Both the position numbers and the translations under genes were made by a program. From Isoptericola halotolerans (GTDB taxonomy: Bacteria > Actinomycetota > Actinomycetes > Actinomycetales > Cellulomonadaceae), in the NCBI RefSeq assembly GCF_013149785.1, contig NZ_JABEZU010000001.1:62001-126000 (forward strand): DNA of 64,000 nt. Direction: 5' to 3'. The notes beneath the pieces were generated by a model. The model was not told where the DNA came from. It saw only the letters and a list, made by a program, of their open reading frames with translations, and ran no database searches. Each line of letters begins with the position of its first letter. The stretch's first letter is position 1. Positions 54,529 to 64,000 of the stretch are shown piece by piece.

Positions 54529-55002
54529 CCAGCCCGCCAGCGGTCAAGGCGCCACGCGCCCACCAGTCTCGGCGGGACCGCACCTAACGGCCATCTCCGT
54601 GCTCGCGCGCCAGTTTGCGGGCGTGGCGGCGGGCTTTCGCGCCGCTGCCGGTGTCGTCGCGGCGGGTGTCGCGCCACCGTGTGGCTCTGATGATGAGGCA
54701 GGGAGCGCGTTGGCCTCGGCGCCGTTCCTCGAGCGTGTTTCCCGATGACTTGGTGCCGCTGCCCTCACCGAGTCCAGGTGCCACATGAGCGCGGCGACCG
54801 TGGGCGGCACGAACCGGAACGTGCCCGTGTAGGGCGTCGAGCCTCTACTGACAGCGACTTCGCGCAGGGCGGCGAACAGCCCGGGGGCCGAGAGGGTTGT
54901 GGTCAGCGTCAGCAGCACCTGTAGGGCTGGCCGTCAAGGGCAGCGCAGCGCGCCGAGCACGCCGCCCCGTCGTCTCCCCGATAGAGCAGAAGGTCCCCAA
55001 CA
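54529..55002. other. Gene-poor stretch with degraded coding-like fragments
   Basis: About 470 bp with no gene I can support. Minus-strand frames give protein-like pieces in different frames (TGTFRFVPPTVAALMWHLDSV, then a basic segment with RDTRRDDTGSGAKARRHARKLAREHGDG), which looks like a frame-shifted remnant, perhaps of mobile DNA. Composition is intermediate between the acquired block and the chromosome. Confidence 0.35.
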
Positions 55003-55035
55003 TTTGCTTGACAGCAAACAAAAGTCGCGTAGTGT
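55003..55035 (+). promoter_or_regulatory. Promoter and palindromic operator of the Ebo-type operon
   Basis: TTGACA (55008-55013), a 16-bp spacer, then TAGTGT (55030-55035), 7 nt before the ATG at 55043: a leaderless promoter. TTTGCT-TGAC-AGCAAA (55003-55018) is a palindrome over the -35. The first ten bases, the -35/-10 spacing and the first codons recur at 63382-63427, beside the ROK repressor gene. Confidence 0.8.
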
Positions 55036-55042
55036 GCGCGAT

Positions 55043-56233
55043 ATGGTCAATGATGACACTGCCCGTGGACCACGGCGTACCGGCATCTGGTTCATCGGCG
55101 CCCGGGGCTCGGTCGCCACCACCGCCACGATCGGCGCGCTCGCCCTGGCACGGGGCGCCGCACCCGTGACCGGTCTGGTCACCGAGCTCGACGAGATCGC
55201 CCAGGCGGACCTGCCGCCGATCGACGGCTTCGTCATCGGCGGGCACGACCTCGCCGGGAGCATGGTCGAGCGGGCCCAGGAGCTCGCGGGCTCCGGGGTG
55301 GTCCCCGCCGCGACCGTCGCCGCCGTGCTCGACGACCTCGCCGTGGTCGACTCCCGGGTCCGCCCTGGCGCCGACACCACCGACGGTCTCGCCGACCGCT
55401 CCACCACGGACCGTCTGGAGCGGGACCTGCGCGCCTTCCGCGTGGAGAACGATCTCGACCGCGTCGTCGTCGTCGACGTCTCCAGCACCGAGCCGCCGTC
55501 CCCCGAGGCCGCGCGCCTCGGCACCCTCGACGAGCTCGACCGCGCGCTCGACGCCGGGACCGCGCCGCTCCCGCCGTCGTCCCTCTACGCCTACGCCGCG
55601 TTCCGCGCGGAGTGCCCGTTCGTCGAGTTCACCCCGTCGACCGGGCCCGTCGTCCCCGCGCTGGAGGAGCTCGCCAAGTCGCAGCACCTGCCGTGGGCCG
55701 GGCGCGACGGCAAGACCGGCGAGACCCTGCTGAAGACGGCCCTCGCCCCGATGTTCGCCACGCGGGCGCTCGCGGTCCGCTCCTGGTCGGCGTTCAACAT
55801 CCTCGGCGGCGGCGACGGGCGCACCCTGGCGGACCCGGCGGCAGCCGCCAGCAAGACGGCCACCAAGGCGATGGCGCTCGAGGCGATCCTCGGCTACCCG
55901 GTCGAGGGTCCGGTGCGCATCGATCACGTCGCCGACATGGGCGACTGGAAGACCGCCTGGGACCACGTGTCCTTCGAGGGGTTCCTCGGCACCCGCATGC
56001 GCATGCAGGTCACCTGGGAGGGCTGCGACTCGGCGCTCGCCGCGCCGCTGGTCCTCGACCTCGCCCGGCTCGTCGCCCGGGCGCACGAGGTCGGCCACAG
56101 CGGCCCCGTCGCTGAGCTCGGGTTCTTCTTCAAGGAGCCCCTCGGCGGCACCACCCACGCGCTGGGTGACCAGTGGCAGGCGCTGGTGCGCTGGTGCGCG
56201 ACGCTGGGCGAGACCCCCGGCAGCGCCGCATGA
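55043..56233 (+). CDS. Inositol-3-phosphate synthase family protein
   Basis: 396 aa, ATG at 55043. WFIGARGSVATTATIGALAL (17-36) is the NAD-binding start. SSLYAYAAFRAECPFVEFTPSTG, the GRDGKTGETLLKTALAPMFATRALAVRSWSAFNILGGGDG core and the DWKTAWDHVSFEGFLGTRM segment belong to the myo-inositol-1-phosphate synthase fold, with catalytic lysines retained. Known members cyclise glucose-6-phosphate to inositol phosphate; a different sugar phosphate is possible here. It heads seven coupled genes whose other members are Ebo proteins, and takes the place of EboD, the dehydroquinate-synthase-like cyclase of other Ebo clusters. Confidence 0.9.
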   Translation: MVNDDTARGPRRTGIWFIGARGSVATTATIGALALARGAAPVTGLVTELDEIAQADLPPIDGFVIGGHDLAGSMVERAQELAGSGVVPAATVAAVLDDLAVVDSRVRPGADTTDGLADRSTTDRLERDLRAFRVENDLDRVVVVDVSSTEPPSPEAARLGTLDELDRALDAGTAPLPPSSLYAYAAFRAECPFVEFTPSTGPVVPALEELAKSQHLPWAGRDGKTGETLLKTALAPMFATRALAVRSWSAFNILGGGDGRTLADPAAAASKTATKAMALEAILGYPVEGPVRIDHVADMGDWKTAWDHVSFEGFLGTRMRMQVTWEGCDSALAAPLVLDLARLVARAHEVGHSGPVAELGFFFKEPLGGTTHALGDQWQALVRWCATLGETPGSAA

Positions 56234-57117
56234 GATGGCGTGACCTCGCCGAGCTCGTCCGGCTCCCGGCCGCCCTCACCGTGCCCGGGGACACGCTGGT
56301 CGGGGCGGCCGCCGCCGGGTGGCCGAGCGGTCGGCGCACCGCCGCGCTGCCGTTCGCCTCGGCGGCCCTGTACTGGGCGGGCATGGCCCTCAACGACTGG
56401 TCCGACCGAGAGCTGGACGCCGTGGAACGCCCGGAGCGACCCATCCCGTCGGGCCGCGTGCAGCCCGACGAGGCGCTGGCCGTCGCCGCGGGCCTCACCG
56501 GTGCCGGCCTCGCCTGCGCCGCCGTCGCCGGGCGCCGACCGCTCGCCGTCGCCACCGCGCTGGCGGCTGCCGTGTGGACGTACGACGTCGTGGCCAAGTC
56601 GACGCCGGCCGGGCCGGTCGTCATGGCCTCGACCCGGTTCCTCGACGTCATGATGGGCGCGGGCGGACGGCGTGAGGCCCTCGGACCGGCCGCGGCCCTC
56701 GGCGCTCACACCCTCGCGGTCACCGCCGTCTCCCGTGGCGAGGTGAACGGCTCGACCACCGGAACGGCCCGGGCCGCCGCAGCCACCACCGGCGCCGTCA
56801 CGCTCGCCGTCGCGGCCGACGCTCTCCTGGGGGCACCGCGCCGTGCGGCACCCACCGGAGCCTGCGCCTGGCCGCAGCAGGTCGCCGGCCCGGTGCTCGC
56901 GGCGTCGTACGCGGCGGCGGTGCTGCCCGCCCAGCTCGACGTCGTCCGTGAGCCCGACGCCGGCAACGCCCGCCGTGCGACCGGCGTCGGCATCCGGGGG
57001 ATGGTCCCGCTGCAGGCTGCGCTGCTCGCCGGGCGGGGCGCCGTCGTCGGCGCGCTCGGGGTGCTGGCGATCGGCCCGCTCGCCAAGCTCGGCGCCCGGG
57101 TGGTGAGCCCCACGTGA
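56230..57117 (+). CDS. eboC: UbiA-like prenyltransferase, EboC type
   Basis: 295 aa, start overlaps the upstream stop (ATGA). The UbiA Asp-rich motif is NDWSDRELD (55-63), followed by ERPERPIPSGRV, also typical. A second polar motif near 120-140 (YDVVAKSTPAGPVVMASTRFLDVMMG) and about eight hydrophobic helices complete the fold. UbiA enzymes join a prenyl chain to an aromatic or sugar acceptor at the membrane; EboC's acceptor is unknown in any organism. In this operon the acceptor could be a cyclitol. Confidence 0.9.
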   Translation: MRWRDLAELVRLPAALTVPGDTLVGAAAAGWPSGRRTAALPFASAALYWAGMALNDWSDRELDAVERPERPIPSGRVQPDEALAVAAGLTGAGLACAAVAGRRPLAVATALAAAVWTYDVVAKSTPAGPVVMASTRFLDVMMGAGGRREALGPAAALGAHTLAVTAVSRGEVNGSTTGTARAAAATTGAVTLAVAADALLGAPRRAAPTGACAWPQQVAGPVLAASYAAAVLPAQLDVVREPDAGNARRATGVGIRGMVPLQAALLAGRGAVVGALGVLAIGPLAKLGARVVSPT

Positions 57118-57992
57118 TCACCCTGGCCTACGGCACCAACGGGCTCGCCGACCACCGGCTCGAGGACGCCCTCGCCCTGCTGGCCGACCACGGCTACGGC
57201 GGTGTGGCGCTGACACTCGACCACATGCACCTGGACCCGCTGGCCCCCGGGCTGGCGGCCCGCACGGCGCGGGTGCGCGGGATGCTCGAACGCCACGACC
57301 TGCAGGTGGTCGTCGAGACCGGGGCCCGCTACGTGCTCGACCCACGTCGCAAGCACGAACCCACCCTGCTGTCCGACGACGGGCACGAACGCCGCCTCGA
57401 CCTGCTGCGCACCGCCGTCGACGCCGCCGTGGACCTGGGCGGGTCGGTCGTCCACCTGTGGTCCGGGGTGCTCCCTGCCGGGACGACGCCCGAGGTCGGG
57501 CGGGAACGGTTGCGGTCCGGGCTGGAGAAACTGCTCCCCGTCGCCGAGGCCGCGGGCGTGGTGCTGGCCTTCGAGCCGGAGCCCGGCATGCTCGTCGAGC
57601 GTGTCGACGACCTGGTGGACCTGCGCTGTGGGCTCGGGGACCCGGCGGCGCTGCGGCTCACCGTCGACGTGGGGCACCTGACCTGCGTGGAGGACGAGCC
57701 CGGGCCCGAGGTGATCCGACGCGTGGGTGACCTGATCGCCCACGTCCAGGTGGACGACATGGTCCGCGGCGTGCACGAGCACCTCGAGCTCGGCACCGGG
57801 ACCGTCGACCTGCCCGGCGTCCTCGCTGCCCTGCACGAGACGGGCTTCGACGGTCTTGCGGCCGTGGAGCTGCCGCGCCACTCGCACGCCGGCGCGCGGC
57901 TCGTCGCCTCGAGCGCGGCGGCGATCCGTGCCGCCGCCCGCACCGCCGACATCCCCCTCGCGCCGTCGACCAGGAGGTTGGTCCCGCAATGA
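57114..57992 (+). CDS. TIM-barrel sugar-phosphate isomerase/epimerase
   Basis: 292 aa, GTG start overlapping the eboC stop (GTGA). AP endonuclease family 2/xylose-isomerase-like barrel: GYGGVALTLDHMHLD, VVETGARYVLDPRRKHEPTL, FEPEPGMLVERVDDL with metal-binding Glu, LTVDVGHLTCVE with Asp and His, HVQVDDMVRGVHEHLELGTGTVD, and AVELPRHSH. It should isomerise or epimerise a sugar or cyclitol. This extra barrel is not one of the five core Ebo proteins, which suggests a substrate-specific adaptation of this cluster. Coupled to eboA by ATGA. Confidence 0.9.
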   Translation: MITLAYGTNGLADHRLEDALALLADHGYGGVALTLDHMHLDPLAPGLAARTARVRGMLERHDLQVVVETGARYVLDPRRKHEPTLLSDDGHERRLDLLRTAVDAAVDLGGSVVHLWSGVLPAGTTPEVGRERLRSGLEKLLPVAEAAGVVLAFEPEPGMLVERVDDLVDLRCGLGDPAALRLTVDVGHLTCVEDEPGPEVIRRVGDLIAHVQVDDMVRGVHEHLELGTGTVDLPGVLAALHETGFDGLAAVELPRHSHAGARLVASSAAAIRAAARTADIPLAPSTRRLVPQ

Positions 57993-58597
57993 TCGCTGAT
58001 ATCGACGCCAAGCTCCTGCTCGGCACCGACCAGGAGGAACGGCTCGCCCCGCTGCTGACCGAGGTCCGCCGCGACCCCGCCACGCTGACCCGGCACGTCG
58101 CCCGGGCCGCCCGCGTCGTCGGCCGCGGCCCAGGCCCGTACGGTCACCGCGTCGAGGACGTCGCCCGCGCCCGGTTGCTGCTCGCCGCCTGCGAGACGCT
58201 CGGCCCGCAGGCGGCCGCCGACGTCGTCGCGGAGCAGTACGGCAGCGGGGACGCCGACGAACGGCGTGCCGTGCTGATCGCCCTGCCCGCCCTGGACGCC
58301 GGACCCGAGGGCATCGGGGACGCCGCCGTCCCCGTCGTCCTCGACGCGCTGCGCACCAACGACACCCGTCTGGTCGCCGCGGCCATGGGGCCGTACGCCG
58401 CCGAGCACCTGCCCGACGACGCCTGGCGTCACGGGGTGCTCAAGTGCCTGTTCACCGGTGTGCCGCTGGCGGCCGTCGCCCACCTCGAGGCCCGCCGCGA
58501 CGCCGAGCTCGACCGCATGGTCCGCGCCCTCGCCGACGAACGACGGGCGGCAGGTCGCGACGTCCCCGACGACGCCACCCGGCTCCTCGCCCGCTGA
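57989..58597 (+). CDS. eboA: EboA-domain protein
   Basis: 202 aa helical, ATG overlapping the upstream stop. Diagnostic C-terminal text: DALRTNDTRLVAAAMGPYAAEHLPDDAWRHGVLKCLFTGVPLAAVAHLEARRDAELDRMVRALADERRAAGRDVP, the region that defines EboA. The biochemical role of EboA is unknown; in cyanobacteria the ebo genes are needed to move a scytonemin precursor to the periplasm. A 77-bp gap with its own ribosome binding site separates it from eboB. Confidence 0.92.
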   Translation: MIADIDAKLLLGTDQEERLAPLLTEVRRDPATLTRHVARAARVVGRGPGPYGHRVEDVARARLLLAACETLGPQAAADVVAEQYGSGDADERRAVLIALPALDAGPEGIGDAAVPVVLDALRTNDTRLVAAAMGPYAAEHLPDDAWRHGVLKCLFTGVPLAAVAHLEARRDAELDRMVRALADERRAAGRDVPDDATRLLAR

Positions 58598-58674
58598 CCC
58601 GCACCGGCTGCGCCCGACCTCGCCCGACTGAAAACCCCTCCGCACCGCCGCGGACCGACCCCGAGGAGAGCCCC

Positions 58675-59556
58675 GTGCGCATCTTCGACCCGCACATCCA
58701 CATGACCTCCCGGACCACCGACGACTACGAGGCGATGTACGCCGCCGGGGTGCGCGCCGTCGTCGAGCCCGCGTTCTGGCTCGGCCAGCCCCGCACCTCC
58801 GTCGGGTCCTTCGTCGACTACTTCGACGGCCTGCTCGGCTGGGAGAGGTTCCGCGCGAGCCAGTTCGGCATCGCGCACCACGCCACCATCGCCCTCAACC
58901 CCAAGGAGGCGAACGACCCGCGGTGCCTCGGGGTGCTCGACGTCCTGCCGCGATACCTGGAGAAGGACGGCGTCGTGGCCGTCGGCGAGATCGGGTTCGA
59001 CTCGATGACCGACGCCGAGGAGACCGTCATGGTGCGCCAGCTCGAGCTCGCCGGGGAGCACGACCTGCCGGTCATGGTGCACACCCCGCACCGCGACAAG
59101 GTGGCCGGTACGCGCCGCACCCTCGAGATCGTGCAGCAGGTCGGCCTGCCCCCCGAGCGGGTGCTCGTGGACCACCTCAACGAGAAGACCGTCGACCTGG
59201 TCGACGACGCCGGGTGCTGGGCCGGGTTCTCGGTGTACCCCGACACGAAGATGGACGAGGACCGCATGGTCGCGATCCTGGAGCGTCGCGGCCTGGACCG
59301 GGTGCTCGTCAACTCCGCCGCCGACTGGGGCCGCTCCGACCCGCTGAAGACCTACCGCACCGGGCAGGCGATGCTCGCCGGCGGGTACACCGACGACGAC
59401 GTCGATCGCGTGCTGTGGCGCAACCCGGTCGCCTTCTACGGACAGAGCGGCCGGTTGCTGCTCGACGACGGCTCCCTCGATGCCACCGTCGGTGCCTCCG
59501 CCGCGGACTTCGAGGGCAACACGCTGCAGCGCGGCGAACCGGTGGGGCTGGCCTGA
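58675..59556 (+). CDS. eboB: TatD-family metal-dependent hydrolase, EboB type
   Basis: 293 aa from the GTG at 58675, preceded by GAGGAGAG. Metal ligands are visible: HIH (His7, His9), Glu in GEIGFD, His in MVHTPHRDK, His in VLVDHLNEKT, and Asp in NSAADWG. The FDPHIHMTSRTTDDYEAMYAAGVRAVVEPAFWLGQPRTS opening is that of EboB proteins. It should hydrolyse an amide, ester or phosphoester of the pathway's intermediate. Overlaps eboE by one base (TGATG). Confidence 0.92.
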   Translation: MRIFDPHIHMTSRTTDDYEAMYAAGVRAVVEPAFWLGQPRTSVGSFVDYFDGLLGWERFRASQFGIAHHATIALNPKEANDPRCLGVLDVLPRYLEKDGVVAVGEIGFDSMTDAEETVMVRQLELAGEHDLPVMVHTPHRDKVAGTRRTLEIVQQVGLPPERVLVDHLNEKTVDLVDDAGCWAGFSVYPDTKMDEDRMVAILERRGLDRVLVNSAADWGRSDPLKTYRTGQAMLAGGYTDDDVDRVLWRNPVAFYGQSGRLLLDDGSLDATVGASAADFEGNTLQRGEPVGLA

Positions 59557-60758
59557 TGCGGTTCCGTCACCCCGACGGCACCGTCCTGCACGTCTCCTAC
59601 GGCACCAACGTCCACCCGGCGCAGGATGTGGACGGCCTGGTCGACCAGCTCCGCCGGTTCGCCGGCCCCGTGCGGCGGCGCCTCGGCGCGGACCGGCTCG
59701 GCCTGGGGCTGTGGCTGCCCGCCGAGGCCACGCACCGGCTCGCCGCCGACCCCTCCGCCGTCGGTCTGCTGCGCAAGGCGCTCGAGCACGAGGGCCTGGA
59801 GGTCGTCACCGTCAACGCCTTCCCCTACGGCAACTTCCACGCGCCGGTAGTGAAGAAGGCCGTCTACCGGCCGGACTGGACGCAGGACGCCCGCCTGGAC
59901 TACACGCTCGACTGCGCACAGGTGCTCACCGAGCTGCTGCCCGACGACGTCGCGCGCGGCAGCATCAGCACGTTGCCGCTGGGGTGGCGCGAGCCTTGGG
60001 ATGCCACCCGGTCCGCTGCCGCCCGCGACCGGCTCGACCGCCTCGCGGACGGGCTCGGGGTGCTCGAGGACCGGACCGGCCGGACGGTGCGCGTCGCGTT
60101 CGAGCCCGAGCCGGGCTGCCTCGCCGAGACGGCCACCGGCCTCGCGGACCACCTGCGCGGCGTCGACACCGACCGCCTGGGCGCCTGCGTCGACCTGTGC
60201 CACCTCGCCACGGAGTTCGAGGAGCCGACGGCGGCGCTCGCGGCGCTCCGCGGGGCCGGCCTGCCCGTGGTCAAGACGCAGGTCTCGGCCGCGCTGCACT
60301 GCGAGGACCCGCGTGACCCGGCGGCGCTGGAGGCCCTGGAGGAGTTCGCCGAGGCGCGGTTCCTGCACCAGGTGCGCGAGCGGCACGTGACCGGATCGGC
60401 CGGCACCGGTGGTACCGCCGTCGAGCGTCGCGACGACCTGCCGGACGCGCTGGGCCGGGTGGACGGCACACCCGGCCTGCCCGGAGACGGCCCCTGGCGG
60501 GTGCACGTGCACGTCCCGCTGCACGCCACCCCGCGCCCGCCGCTGCGGAGCACCCGGGACGTGCTGACCGACGCGTTGGACCTGCTCGTCGGCGGCCCGC
60601 ACCCCGTGGTGGACCACCTGGAGACCGAGACGTACACCTGGTCGGTGCTGCCCGCCCACCTGCGCCCGCGGGACGACGACGGCCTCGTGGCCGGTATCGC
60701 CGCCGAGCTGGCGTGGACCCGCGGACAGCTCGTCGACCGAGGGATGGGGGCGCTGTGA
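59556..60758 (+). CDS. eboE: EboE metabolite-traffic protein (TIM barrel)
   Basis: 400 aa. SYGTNVHPAQDVDGLVDQLR near the start, VNAFPYGNFHAPVVKKAVYRPDW, ISTLPLGWR, FEPEPGCLAET, DLCHLATEFEEP and VKTQVSAALHC form a xylose-isomerase-like barrel with the EboE pattern. YGNFH...VK.AVY.PDW is the part I trust most for the call. Activity unknown. One-base overlap with eboB and GTGA overlap with eboF show tight coupling. Confidence 0.92.
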   Translation: MRFRHPDGTVLHVSYGTNVHPAQDVDGLVDQLRRFAGPVRRRLGADRLGLGLWLPAEATHRLAADPSAVGLLRKALEHEGLEVVTVNAFPYGNFHAPVVKKAVYRPDWTQDARLDYTLDCAQVLTELLPDDVARGSISTLPLGWREPWDATRSAAARDRLDRLADGLGVLEDRTGRTVRVAFEPEPGCLAETATGLADHLRGVDTDRLGACVDLCHLATEFEEPTAALAALRGAGLPVVKTQVSAALHCEDPRDPAALEALEEFAEARFLHQVRERHVTGSAGTGGTAVERRDDLPDALGRVDGTPGLPGDGPWRVHVHVPLHATPRPPLRSTRDVLTDALDLLVGGPHPVVDHLETETYTWSVLPAHLRPRDDDGLVAGIAAELAWTRGQLVDRGMGAL

Positions 60759-62137
60759 ACCGGATGCTGGTGCTCGACGTGGTCGGGCTGACCCCGCGCC
60801 TGCTGGCGCACATGCCGCGCCTGCGGGCGTTCGCCGACGGCGGGAGCCGGGCCGAGCTCGGCACCGTGCTGCCCGCCGTGACGTGCACGGTGCAGTCGAC
60901 GTTCCTCACCGGCCTGCCGCCGTCGGAGCACGGCATCGTGGCGAACGGCTGGTTCTTCCGCGACCTGGGGGAGCCGCTGCTGTGGCGCCAGCACCACCGG
61001 CTGGTCGGCGGGGAGAAGGTGTGGGAGACGATCCGTCGCGAGCGCCCGGGGTACCGCGTGGCGAACGTGTGCTGGTGGTACGCGATGGGTTCGACGGCGG
61101 ACACGACGATCACCCCGCGGCCCGTCTACCACGCCGACGGGCGCAAGGACCCGGACTGCTGGACGTGGCCCCCGGAGCTGCACGACGAGCTGGAGGCCGA
61201 GATCGGGCCGTTCCCGCTGTTCACCTACTGGGGCCCGACGGCGGGCATCGCCTCCTCGCGGTGGATCGTCGCCGCGGCACGCAGGCTCCTGCCCGAGCAC
61301 GACATGACGCTCGTGTACGTGCCGCACCTGGACTACGACCTGCAGCGGTTCGGACCGGACGGCCCGGAGGCGGTGGCAGCGGCACGCGCGGTGGACGAGG
61401 TGCTGGCGCCGCTGCTGGACGACGCCGAGCGGTCGGGGACCACCGTCGTCGCGCTGAGCGAGTACGGCATCACGGCCGCGCGCCGACCGGTGGACGTGAA
61501 CCGCGCACTGCGCCGGGCGGGCCTGCTGCACGTGCACACCAACGCCACGGGCGAGCTGCTGGACCCGTGGACGTCGCGGGCCTTCGCGGTGGCGGACCAC
61601 CAGGTGGCGCACGTCTACGTGCACGACCCGGCCGACGTGCCCGCGGTGGCGGAGCTCCTCGGCGGTCTGCCCGGCGTCGCCGAGGTGCTGGACTCCGTAG
61701 GGAAGGCGGCCCACGACCTGGACCACGAGCGGTCCGGGGACCTGGTGCTGGTCGCGGAGCCGGACGCCTGGTTCACGTACTACTACTGGCTCGACGACGA
61801 GCGCGCACCGGACTTCGCGCGGTCGGTGGAGATCCACAAGAAGCCGGGGTTCGACCCGGCGGAGCTGTTCTGGGACCCGCAGGACCGTTGGGTGAAGGGC
61901 CGGGCGCTGCTGCACGTGCTGCGCAAGAAGACGGGGCTGCGCTCGACGATGCGGGTGGTGCCGCTGGACCCGTCCCCGGTGGGCGGGACGCACGGGCGGC
62001 TGCCGGCCGACCCGGCGGACGGTCCGGTGCTGCTGTGCTCGGAGCCGGACGCGCTGCCGGGCGAGAGCCGGGTGGAGGCGACCGAGGTGCGCGACCTGCT
62101 GCTCAGGCTGTCGCGGCAGCCGAGCCCGGTGCGGTGA
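60755..62137 (+). CDS. eboF: EboF alkaline-phosphatase/phosphodiesterase family protein
   Basis: 460 aa from a GTG at 60755 overlapping the eboE stop. Nucleotide pyrophosphatase/phosphodiesterase fold: Asp8 in VLDVVGLTPR, probable nucleophile Thr43 in PAVTCTVQSTFLTG, HGIVANGWFFRD, PHLDYDLQ with Asp/His, and SEYGIT. No signal peptide, so cytoplasmic, as for other EboF proteins. It would cleave a phosphodiester or phosphoester of the cluster's product, for example a nucleotide- or lipid-linked one. Its last 35 bp overlap the convergent ROK gene. Confidence 0.9.
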   Translation: MNRMLVLDVVGLTPRLLAHMPRLRAFADGGSRAELGTVLPAVTCTVQSTFLTGLPPSEHGIVANGWFFRDLGEPLLWRQHHRLVGGEKVWETIRRERPGYRVANVCWWYAMGSTADTTITPRPVYHADGRKDPDCWTWPPELHDELEAEIGPFPLFTYWGPTAGIASSRWIVAAARRLLPEHDMTLVYVPHLDYDLQRFGPDGPEAVAAARAVDEVLAPLLDDAERSGTTVVALSEYGITAARRPVDVNRALRRAGLLHVHTNATGELLDPWTSRAFAVADHQVAHVYVHDPADVPAVAELLGGLPGVAEVLDSVGKAAHDLDHERSGDLVLVAEPDAWFTYYYWLDDERAPDFARSVEIHKKPGFDPAELFWDPQDRWVKGRALLHVLRKKTGLRSTMRVVPLDPSPVGGTHGRLPADPADGPVLLCSEPDALPGESRVEATEVRDLLLRLSRQPSPVR

Positions 62138-63320
62138 GGGAGCCCGGTGCGGTGGCCTCCCTGACCAGCAGGGACGGTTCGGCGAACGCGTGCTCGACGG
62201 CGGCGTGGGCACCCCCGAGCACGCCCGCCCGTGCTCCGGCGAGGCTGGTGACGACCCGCAGGTGCTGGGTCGCCAGCGGCAGCGAGCGGGAGTAGACGAC
62301 CTCGCGGATCCCGGCGATCAGGTGCTCGCCGGCCCGGGACATGGATCCGCCGATGACGATGGCGGACGGGTTGAGCAGGCTGACGCAGCCGGCCAGGACG
62401 GCGCCGATCGAGCGGCCGGCGTCGCGGACGGCTGCGGCGGCGCGCAGGTCGCCGTGGCGGACCAGCTCGACGACGTCGCTGGTGGTCCGGGCGGGGACGC
62501 CTCGCTCGGTGAGCCGGGCCGCGACGGCCGCGCCGCCGGCGATCGCCTCGAGACAGCCGGTGTTGCCGCAGGTGCACCGCACGGGCTCGGCACCGGGGAC
62601 GGCGATGTGGCCGAGGTCCCCGGCGCTGCCCTGGGCGCCTCGGTGGATGCGGCCCTCGGCGACGATCCCCGAGCCGATGCCGGTCGCCACCTTGACGAAC
62701 AGCAGGTGGCCGACGTCGGGCAGGGCGGTGGCGTGCTCGCCCAGGGCCATGAGGTTGACGTCGTTGTCGACCAGGACGGCGACGTCGCCGAGGCGGTGTC
62801 GGAGCGCTCCCACGACGTCGCTGCCGTCCCAGCCGGGCATGATCGGCGGTTTCGTCGGCCGCCCGGTGGCGTGGTCGACGGGGCCGGGGAGCCCGACGCC
62901 GACGCCGACGACGTCGCTCAGGGGGCGGCCGAGGTCGCCGGCGAGCCGGCTCACGAGGGCGGCGACACGGTCGAGGACGACGTCCGGCCCGTCGGCGATG
63001 CTCAGCGACTCCAGGTGTCCGGCGAGCTCTCGGCCGGCGAGGTCGGTGAGCGCGACCCGCGCGTGGGTGGCGCCGAGGTCGACACCCGCGACCAGGCGGG
63101 CGCCGGGGGAGAGCGCGAACATCGCGGCGGGGCGGCCGCCGGTGGACTCGGCGCCTCCGACGGGGGCCACCAGGCCGAGTCGCAGCAGCTCGTCGATGCG
63201 CGTCGCGATGGTGGACCGGGAGAGCCCCGCGGTCCGGGCGAGCTCCGCGCGGGTGCGATACCGCCCGTCACGCAGCAGGTGCAGGACGGCACCGAGCTCG
63301 GGTGCCGGAACGGTGGCCAT
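62103..63320 (-). CDS. ROK-family transcriptional repressor
   Basis: 405 aa from the ATG at 63320 (a TTG at 63332 is an alternative). Winged helix at ~10-65 (TRAELARTAGLSRSTIATRIDELLRLGLV). The sugar-kinase-like ROK domain opens with AGVDLGATHARVAL, has the zinc motif CTCGNTGCLE preceded by GHIAVPG, and the sugar-binding Asn-Asp in VDNDVN. Such XylR/NagC-type repressors respond to a sugar or sugar phosphate. The gene lies between two promoters that share TTTGCTTGAC, making it the likely regulator of the Ebo-type operon and of the sugar-dehydrogenase gene. Confidence 0.92.
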   Translation of the reverse strand: MATVPAPELGAVLHLLRDGRYRTRAELARTAGLSRSTIATRIDELLRLGLVAPVGGAESTGGRPAAMFALSPGARLVAGVDLGATHARVALTDLAGRELAGHLESLSIADGPDVVLDRVAALVSRLAGDLGRPLSDVVGVGVGLPGPVDHATGRPTKPPIMPGWDGSDVVGALRHRLGDVAVLVDNDVNLMALGEHATALPDVGHLLFVKVATGIGSGIVAEGRIHRGAQGSAGDLGHIAVPGAEPVRCTCGNTGCLEAIAGGAAVAARLTERGVPARTTSDVVELVRHGDLRAAAAVRDAGRSIGAVLAGCVSLLNPSAIVIGGSMSRAGEHLIAGIREVVYSRSLPLATQHLRVVTSLAGARAGVLGGAHAAVEHAFAEPSLLVREATAPGSLTAPGSAAATA

Positions 63321-63381
63321 CCTCCGAGTCAACCACAGTTCAGGTAGGCGCTGCAGGAAGTTGTGGCTCTGATCGCCATCT

Positions 63382-63731: not shown

Positions 63732-64000
63732 ATGGTCAAGTCTAGACGTCCACGGTTCACCGTGGCGCTGGCGGCGGTGTTCGCGCTGGCACTGCCAGCG
63801 GTGGCCGCGGCCCACGACGGCGTCGATCACGGCGCGGAGGAGGGCGCCGACGCGGCGCTCGACTGGTCGAACTACGAGAAGATCCTGCTCACCAAGGACG
63901 TGGGCGAGCCCATCGGGCTCTCGGTCATGCCGGACGGCAGCGTGCTCCACAGCGCGCGCACCGGCGAGATCCGGCACACCGACCCGTCGACCGGCGTCAC
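63732..64000 (+). CDS. Secreted PQQ-type sugar dehydrogenase, 5' part only
   Basis: The window holds the first ~89 codons. ATG at 63732 follows AGGGAAGTGCG. A basic start and hydrophobic core (VALAAVFALALPAVAAA) form a signal peptide ending before HDGVDHG. The mature start YEKILLTKDVGEPIGLSVMPDGSVLHSARTGEIRHTDPSTGV is the first propeller blade of the glucose/sorbosone dehydrogenase group found in long multidomain actinobacterial proteins. It would oxidise a sugar outside the cell. Placement beside the ROK gene and the shared promoter suggest co-regulation with the Ebo-type cluster. Confidence 0.8.
   Translation, partial: MVKSRRPRFTVALAAVFALALPAVAAAHDGVDHGAEEGADAALDWSNYEKILLTKDVGEPIGLSVMPDGSVLHSARTGEIRHTDPSTGV

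Follow-up and report, generated by a model that had tools for sequence, protein, structure and literature searches.

The ebo operon, eboABCDEF, is known from Bacteroidota, Cyanobacteria, Proteobacteria and the plastids of eustigmatophyte algae. A 2016 survey, which we cite, like the other papers below, from the part of its text available to us, proposed that its product is an isoprenoid-cyclitol (PMC5133447). The same survey also lists ebo operons that have no EboD, and thus EboD, a dehydroquinate-synthase-like cyclase of the SPC family, does not strictly define the operon (PMC5133447). In Nostoc, where deletions of eboA, eboB, eboC, eboE, eboF and of all the ebo genes have been made, without these genes the scytonemin monomer fails to reach ScyE, an enzyme of the periplasm (PMC6282210). 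Here we describe an actinobacterial ebo operon that is headed by a cyclase unrelated to EboD. It lies in a stretch of 64,000 nucleotides from Isoptericola halotolerans (contig NZ_JABEZU010000001.1, positions 62,001 to 126,000 of the forward strand), which we call the window.

Seven nearly contiguous genes occupy positions 55043-62137 of the window, all on the plus strand. The first (55043..56233, 396 aa) encodes an INO1-like cyclase of the myo-inositol-1-phosphate synthase (MIPS) family, referred to here as INO, which matches Pfam PF07994 at 141 bits and PF01658 at 107 bits (cut-offs 25 and 27). It is followed by a UbiA prenyltransferase of EboC type (56230..57117, 295 aa, with the motif NDWSDRELD at residue 55) and by a TIM-barrel protein resembling isomerases and epimerases, which we call TIM and regard as the partner of INO (57114..57992, 292 aa; PF01261, 136 bits). 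Next come EboA (57989..58597, 202 aa; EboA_domain NF035938, 157 bits, cut-off 50), the TatD/amidohydrolase-like EboB (58675..59556, 293 aa; PF01026, 52 bits), the TIM barrel EboE (59556..60758, 400 aa; TIM_EboE NF035939, 411 bits, cut-off 250) and EboF, of the type I phosphodiesterase/nucleotide pyrophosphatase family (60755..62137, 460 aa; PF01663, 210 bits). Overlaps of four bases join INO to eboC, eboC to TIM, TIM to eboA and eboE to eboF; eboB and eboE overlap by one base, and a gap of 77 bases separates eboA from eboB. An earlier note on this DNA, made from its letters alone, had listed the same seven genes at the same positions, and both the open reading frames and the profile searches bear this out. 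The window EboC falls into the NCBIfam 'SCO3242 family prenyltransferase' (360 bits, cut-off 260), and scores 125.5 bits with the EboC model, for which the cut-off is 250. NCBIfam lists no model for EboB or EboF, which we called by PF01026 and PF01663; pooled actinobacterial and proteobacterial queries for these two proteins match in most loci, whether they carry INO or EboD. EboD itself was not found in the window or in the whole genome, since the sole match of the dehydroquinate (DHQ) synthase family is just 35% identical to an EboD.

We consider it probable that the seven genes make up a complete ebo operon and that an INO1-type cyclase together with a TIM-barrel isomerase has taken the place of EboD, so that a cyclitol is fed into the common ebo pathway. 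What we observe, and set out below, is the gene content and order, the exclusion of EboD, the coupling of INO and TIM, a second occurrence of the swap, the intact catalytic residues of INO and a neighbourhood of secreted glucose/sorbosone-dehydrogenase-like (GSDH) proteins shared between cluster types; the reactions, the substrates, the product and its use we infer. INO would turn glucose-6-phosphate into an inositol phosphate, or release a keto intermediate, and TIM would isomerise, epimerise or dehydrate what INO makes. The resulting cyclitol would join the same pathway that EboD feeds in other clusters, where EboC, in the membrane, would link it, or a derivative of it, to a prenyl chain. 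The product would be trimmed by EboE, EboB and EboF, with EboA aiding assembly, and the lipid so formed would serve extracytoplasmic metabolism, as in the scytonemin route of Nostoc.

In order to see how widespread this layout is, we surveyed 394 genomes of the same class, of which 97 have an EboE match, and obtained 93 full-length EboE matches. Far from being rare beside ebo genes in relatives, an ebo-type INO lies upstream of 82 of these 93, on the same strand and within 15 kb (in one, G372, the INO at that place is a fragment with a stop, and a full INO is found on another contig). The other 11 comprise three at contig ends with INO on another contig, two second copies in genomes that also hold a complete operon, one in genome G222, described below, and five lone EboE genes. 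A match to the window INO is present in 84 of the 97 genomes with EboE, versus 5 of the 297 without it, those five scoring 222 bits or less. The exact order INO-C-TIM-A-B-E-F is kept in 61 of the 66 loci in hand that have both INO and EboE, the window and plasmid loci included; three of the other five are without TIM, one reads INO-TIM-A-B-E-F and one INO-A-B-E. Of the 97 EboE places listed for fetching (the 93 full matches, the window among them, and four from a phylum-wide sample), 71 were fetched, the window was read directly and 25 were left unfetched; partial EboE matches, namely 17 rows of the upstream-INO count and one further row of 21 bits, are not among the fetched loci. There were 48 plasmid records with an EboE match, ten of which were read.

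The same gene order is found on Streptomyces plasmids whose genes carry names in the public records, and in four genomes of the phylum that lie outside this class (L038 to L041), although across the phylum ebo is rarer (EboE in 10 of 198 genomes sampled). Because the arrangement recurs across the class, it is not due to chance. Our conclusion is that the INO-headed operon is the ordinary actinobacterial form of ebo and not a local oddity: the exchange of cyclases to which the earlier note had drawn attention is real, but is no peculiarity of this genome.

INO and EboD were not found together in any one locus. Scanning named genomes across phyla with a mixed EboE alignment, we took the best 80 of 550 loci, which come from Proteobacteria, Cyanobacteria, Bacteroidota, Acidobacteria, Myxococcota, Verrucomicrobia, Planctomycetes, Chloroflexi and others, and include two actinobacterial lone EboE genes. 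EboD is present in 67 of these 80, INO in none, and neither in 13, several of which are short or cut contigs or lone EboE genes. Taking all loci in hand with ebo genes (n = 167, a tally that counts the Gemmatirosa record twice, as L022 and L230), 71 are INO-type, 71 EboD-type and 25 have neither; none has both. This agrees with the proposal that the INO1-like gene stands where EboD is missing, and the two cyclases do not commonly share a cluster. An EboD query against 79 whole genomes detected EboD (49-60% identity) solely in G592, G575, G576 and G593, all of which have EboD-type clusters. Elsewhere the best EboD match reached at most 39%; this holds for the 71 actinobacterial genomes as well as for G704 and G695, the INO-type Gemmatimonadota, and the EboD-less alphaproteobacteria G582 and G597. 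Two alphaproteobacterial clusters that are without EboD (L116 and L135) have neither EboD nor INO in their neighbourhood. Their genomes carry elsewhere an INO of the stand-alone group described below (L200:9560-16028 and L201:1835-2590), with one internal stop each, and in L200 a relative of TIM lies about 5 kb from INO.

The TIM barrel follows INO closely. With a threshold of 150 bits it is detected in 62 of 67 actinobacterial INO-type loci, whereas none of the 71 EboD-type loci has it even at 60 bits. As TIM accompanies INO and is missing from every one of the 71 EboD-type loci, it looks like half of the replacement rather than the extra for which it had been taken, the swap then being one of EboD for the pair of INO and TIM. 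The two genes also occur together without other ebo genes at four actinobacterial places (L100 to L103), and in the tree the INO proteins of these places branch together with those of two alphaproteobacteria as a group of their own (92/97). Among proteins of known structure, the best profile matches of TIM are L-ribulose-5-phosphate 3-epimerase and other sugar isomerases and epimerases, with IolE and IolI among the weaker ones; TIM and EboE have the motif EPEPG in common.

A second occurrence of the swap is seen in Gemmatimonadota, three of which show the order C-INO-TIM: L022 (Gemmatirosa, the same record as L230), L229 and L199. The EboF proteins of L022 and L229 are nested in the EboD-type EboF clade (28 rows, 99/96), next to that of the EboD-type locus L108. 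L022 EboE lies inside a 30-row EboD-type clade (100/100), and carries an insertion common to the EboD-type EboE aligned and absent from the actinobacterial EboE aligned; L022 EboB clusters with the EboB of EboD-type L173 and L185, a grouping that the program flagged for long branches. A tree constrained to keep all INO-type EboF in one clade was rejected (approximately unbiased (AU) test, p 0.0068), and the fewest changes of cyclase type on the AU-test trees is two. For EboC, the proteins of L022, L229 and L108 come out together as a clade next to actinobacterial EboC, modestly supported (85/75). INO of Gemmatimonadota and INO of actinobacteria each form a well-supported clade (100/99 and 100/100) and are 48% identical in the pair aligned, with Archaeoglobus MIPS, on a long branch, placed beside the Gemmatimonadota INO with weak support. 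All of these trees are of hand-picked subsets; L229 EboE, which is in two pieces, was left out, and the EboE and EboB trees each hold one Gemmatimonadota INO-type row. Matches to the INO profile as such are common in this phylum (180 of 200 genomes), three of them being ebo-type with 532-598 bits (G704, G576 and G695). The best matches of other Gemmatimonadota, among those listed, are mostly near 300-330 bits, and three such generic loci that were inspected (L231 to L233) have no ebo genes alongside. By the grouping of EboF and EboE, the INO-TIM pair appears to occupy an ebo backbone of EboD-type descent for a second time.

The Gemmatimonadota case bears on a different explanation, namely that INO and TIM are an addition rather than a replacement, with EboD simply lost and the actinobacterial product a different one, made from another cyclitol. 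INO1 enzymes act on glucose-6-phosphate. Consistent with an addition, the actinobacterial and EboD-type clusters form separate clades for EboE, EboF and EboC, the window EboC sits in an NCBIfam family of its own and below the EboC cut-off, and the substrate proposed for EboD is sedoheptulose-7-phosphate (PMC5133447). We nevertheless regard this explanation as rather unlikely, given that the pair recurs in a Gemmatimonadota backbone whose EboF and EboE group with the EboD type, and that the secreted GSDH neighbourhood, described below, is common to both cluster types.

A number of observations weigh against a replacement of EboD by INO and TIM. The earlier note had suggested that EboC prenylates the cyclitol; against this part of the scheme, in an assay of EboC with 14 aromatic acceptors, quinoline-type aromatics were farnesylated while phenols and catechols were not, and the available part of that report names no cyclitol among the acceptors (PMC9235831). 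The coupling of the pair is imperfect: INO occurs without TIM in L050, L051, L070 and L073, only weak pieces of TIM are found in L099, a decayed-looking copy, and the two second copies mentioned above have TIM without INO. A single INO-type EboE clade was not rejected (AU test, p 0.195, with one Gemmatimonadota row), and the AU tests used a smaller set of rows than the first trees and were run after those trees had been seen. The metagenome bin G576 holds both an EboD-type piece and an INO-type piece, on separate contigs (GC 72 vs 67%), perhaps representing two clusters or mixed binning. Generic-type MIPS (289-341 bits) is encoded elsewhere in 7 of 50 cross-phylum genomes searched from the best 80 of 550 loci, and so inositol is available in some EboD-type genomes too. 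Finally, the exclusion is strongly tied to phylum, and the counts therefore reflect few evolutionary events, two on these trees.

With regard to bin G576, we also considered whether its contigs L108 (EboD) and L199 (INO) might be one cluster split in eboC. This was ruled out because the two pieces overlap in protein position and differ in sequence, and are thus two distinct eboC genes.

The nearest solved relative of the window INO is Archaeoglobus fulgidus MIPS, 1u1i (E 2e-67). Both MIPS Pfam domains and the catalytic lysines are present in the window protein, which keeps N252, K271, K275, K303 and K364, corresponding to N255, K274, K278, K306 and K367 of 1u1i. We take these five residues to have catalytic roles; K278 and K367 are mutated in deposited variants. 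All five are identical in 69/69 ebo-type INO (a count that omits L066, where INO is a fragment, and the duplicate L230), in 11/11 generic proteins, 1u1i included, and in 8/8 stand-alone proteins. Position 256-257, shortly after the conserved N252, reads G-G in 66/69 ebo-type sequences, N-R in 10/11 generic ones and D-Y in 1u1i, which for all its common catalytic residues differs from the window INO there, for example. Because the catalytic residues are identical but other positions separate ebo-type from generic proteins, the chemistry of INO is probably kept, while its pocket may differ from that of generic MIPS. The product is not readable from the family, since a relative, 6k96, makes a five-membered cyclitol phosphate.

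That the catalytic residues are those of a true MIPS, in 69 of 69 cases, would also suit a more mundane explanation, in which INO is an ordinary supplier of inositol for mycothiol or phosphatidylinositol and stands in the operon by accident. We judge this to be very improbable, because a mycothiol-type INO1 is encoded separately in the genome, and because the ebo-type INO tracks EboE, being nearly confined to EboE genomes and to one gene order. That one further INO1 matches the mycothiol-type model TIGR03450 at 709.7 bits (cut-off 638), with which the window INO scores 20.8 bits.

The flanking genes give some indication of what the operon may be for. We grouped the flanking proteins of 73 actinobacterial loci by BLAST with single linkage, judging ABC and other transporter genes, and leaders, by eye. 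The commonest group (34/73, window included) is a large protein, the representative of which has ThuA, GSDH, PKD, CBM6 and 3-keto-disaccharide hydrolase domains. Next in frequency are a TIM barrel that bears a Tat-like leader (22), an ABC ATPase (18), another TIM barrel (18), Gfo/Idh/MocA proteins (10) and ROK regulators (9, window included). A GSDH domain is present on the fetched stretch of 32/66 actinobacterial INO-type loci, where 1.1 would be expected from the density in 69 of these genomes (452 matches in 476 Mb), or 3.4 from that of the richest genome; counted by genus, the figure is 13/26. Beside EboD-type loci it is present in 15/71, again against 1.1 expected, from the density in 42 genomes. 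It is important to note that these statistics treat loci as independent although the genomes are related, and that nearness was established by tblastn on the fetched loci, the genome-wide scans supplying per-genome counts only. In the Gemmatimonadota, a GSDH match adjoins TIM on the INO-type contig of G576, tblastn gave no GSDH match on the fetched stretch of L229, and the match in Gemmatirosa was not counted as evidence, as the query came from that very locus. INO-type and EboD-type clusters alike adjoin secreted GSDH-like proteins far above chance.

The window fits this pattern. Convergent with the operon is a gene for a ROK-family regulator (62103..63332, minus strand; PF00480), a recurrent neighbour of such operons. 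Past it begins, on the plus strand, a GSDH-PKD-CBM6-FIMAH protein with a signal-like N terminus (63732..64000, start codon and leader read by eye), which leaves the window (L234:3233-6550) and is followed by a TIM-barrel gene (L234:6593-7588) akin to the TIM barrels with a Tat leader that flank other ebo operons. At the other end of the operon, a possible promoter picked out by eye, TTGACA-16-TAGTGT (55008..55035, plus strand), ends 7 bases before the INO start codon, and its use could make the operon message leaderless; a consensus promoter scan of 54800-62400 returned no promoter-like site.

The flanks could also be read as a system of sugar catabolism, in which INO, TIM, Gfo/Idh/MocA, ThuA, 3-keto-disaccharide hydrolase, ROK and sugar transporters degrade an external glycoside and ebo handles the resulting cyclitol. 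These families do recur in actinobacterial flanks (the transporters as judged by eye), but INO1 enzymes are biosynthetic and not degradative, EboC transfers prenyl groups, and Nostoc ebo mutants fail to make scytonemin (PMC6282210), all of which makes us think catabolism improbable. At one locus, L015, a gene of the ScyD/ScyE family lies directly upstream of INO. Given that ScyE-like and GSDH proteins are both beta-propellers, one common theme may run through all these clusters, with ebo serving enzymes outside the membrane. Taken further, the Ebo product might be a prenylated, cyclitol-derived cofactor in the membrane, a redox lipid or a carrier, that serves beta-propeller oxidoreductases outside the cytoplasm: ScyE in scytonemin makers and GSDH proteins elsewhere. 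Its ring would be made from sugar phosphate by either of two unrelated routes, EboD or INO and TIM. We hold this idea to be doubtful. The INO-TIM route would perhaps pass through a keto-inositol, dehydration of which might even give an aromatic ring, and the apparent export defect of ebo mutants would be a shortage of cofactor. An aromatic ring would be in keeping with the assay of EboC, in which aromatics were prenylated, albeit not the phenols and catechols among the acceptors (PMC9235831).

Several loci depart from the layouts described so far. In G222 a Gfo/Idh/MocA dehydrogenase occupies the INO slot upstream of C-A-B-E-F (L031:11710-12888), with INO-TIM elsewhere (L101). The second copies, L027 and L028, read C-TIM-A-B-E-F without INO, and the other EboE of the genome, with INO upstream, is ~0.2 Mb away. 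In Ketogulonicigenium (L021:5768-15116), two Gfo/Idh/MocA dehydrogenases lie ahead of EboD, and EboB is followed by what is annotated as a sugar phosphate isomerase, a gene set that we see as another hint at cyclitol handling. An INO-type operon on a Streptomyces plasmid (L018:4425-16871) stands beside genes for FAD monooxygenases, a methyltransferase, an amidase, and glutamine-synthetase-like and adenylosuccinate-lyase-like proteins, a neighbourhood that we presume to be reminiscent of kinamycin-type diazo polyketide clusters. Lone EboE-like genes, with no other ebo gene on the stretch, are found at L017:8995-10173 and in L030, L034 to L037, L151 and L152; one such gene lies within an aromatic polyketide cluster, and these genes may represent a branch of EboE that has taken on another role. 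A short EboE-like protein that recurs within one family (f74) accounts for 15 partial matches of EboE, to model positions 1-242 (e.g. G496:C40:148851-149516), and no ebo-type INO was found within 15 kb upstream of these genes.

The ebo cluster spans many phyla, even reaching algal plastids, and what EboD acts on is a guess; of the cyclases, INO1 enzymes are some of the better understood. If INO and TIM do stand in for EboD, the Ebo product should have a cyclitol base, and labelled inositol in common Streptomyces strains could reveal it, making the identity of the product testable. The shared secreted GSDH neighbourhood provides a second handle, on the purpose of the product. The genes themselves are already named in public annotation; the swap, the exclusion of EboD, the INO-TIM pairing, the Gemmatimonadota case and the GSDH neighbourhood are new, in that we did not find them in the literature searched, whose coverage leaves out many subscription journals. 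That search likewise yielded no paper combining EboA, a prenyltransferase and inositol-3-phosphate synthase, and the name 'SCO3242 family prenyltransferase' was absent from it. The available part of PMC5133447 does not describe the actinobacterial operon or its cyclase, nor does it contain the words 'inositol' or 'sorbosone'; 'inositol' is absent also from the available parts of PMC6282210 and PMC9235831.

Compared with eboABCDEF, then, the window operon is alike in having EboA, EboB, EboE, EboF and a UbiA-type EboC in one operon, with GSDH neighbours at part of the loci, and unlike it in having no EboD, in carrying an INO1-like cyclase and TIM, and in an EboC of the SCO3242 family. The EDB cluster of Pseudomonas fluorescens NZ17 contains a full ebo cluster and, by the eboD homologue among its interrupted genes, is of the EboD type (PMC6282210). 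The 2016 survey describes EboA fused to a xylose-isomerase-like part in actinobacteria, and puzzled over the substrate of the EboF phosphodiesterase, given that SPC products carry no phosphate (PMC5133447); the product of INO, unlike these, would carry a phosphate for EboF. In the eboG variant, as here, one ebo gene is replaced by an unrelated one, EboG standing in for EboA (PMC5133447), although it is the small EboA that is swapped there and the cyclase in the window operon. Both swaps may meet in Gemmatirosa, as its EboB falls together with the EboB proteins of Herpetosiphon and of a Bryobacterales bin (again with the warning of long branches); the small open reading frame beside its eboB matched no NCBIfam family, and EboG was not identified there. 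In Streptomyces coelicolor, SCO3242, a putative transferase that gives its name to the family of the window EboC, is listed together with SCO3243, a myo-inositol phosphate synthase, and both are assigned to the CDA antibiotic cluster, with no link to ebo drawn in the part of the paper available (PMC3610822). In the light of the operon described here, SCO3242 and SCO3243 look like members of an ebo operon. Presumably the whole of that operon is present around them in S. coelicolor.

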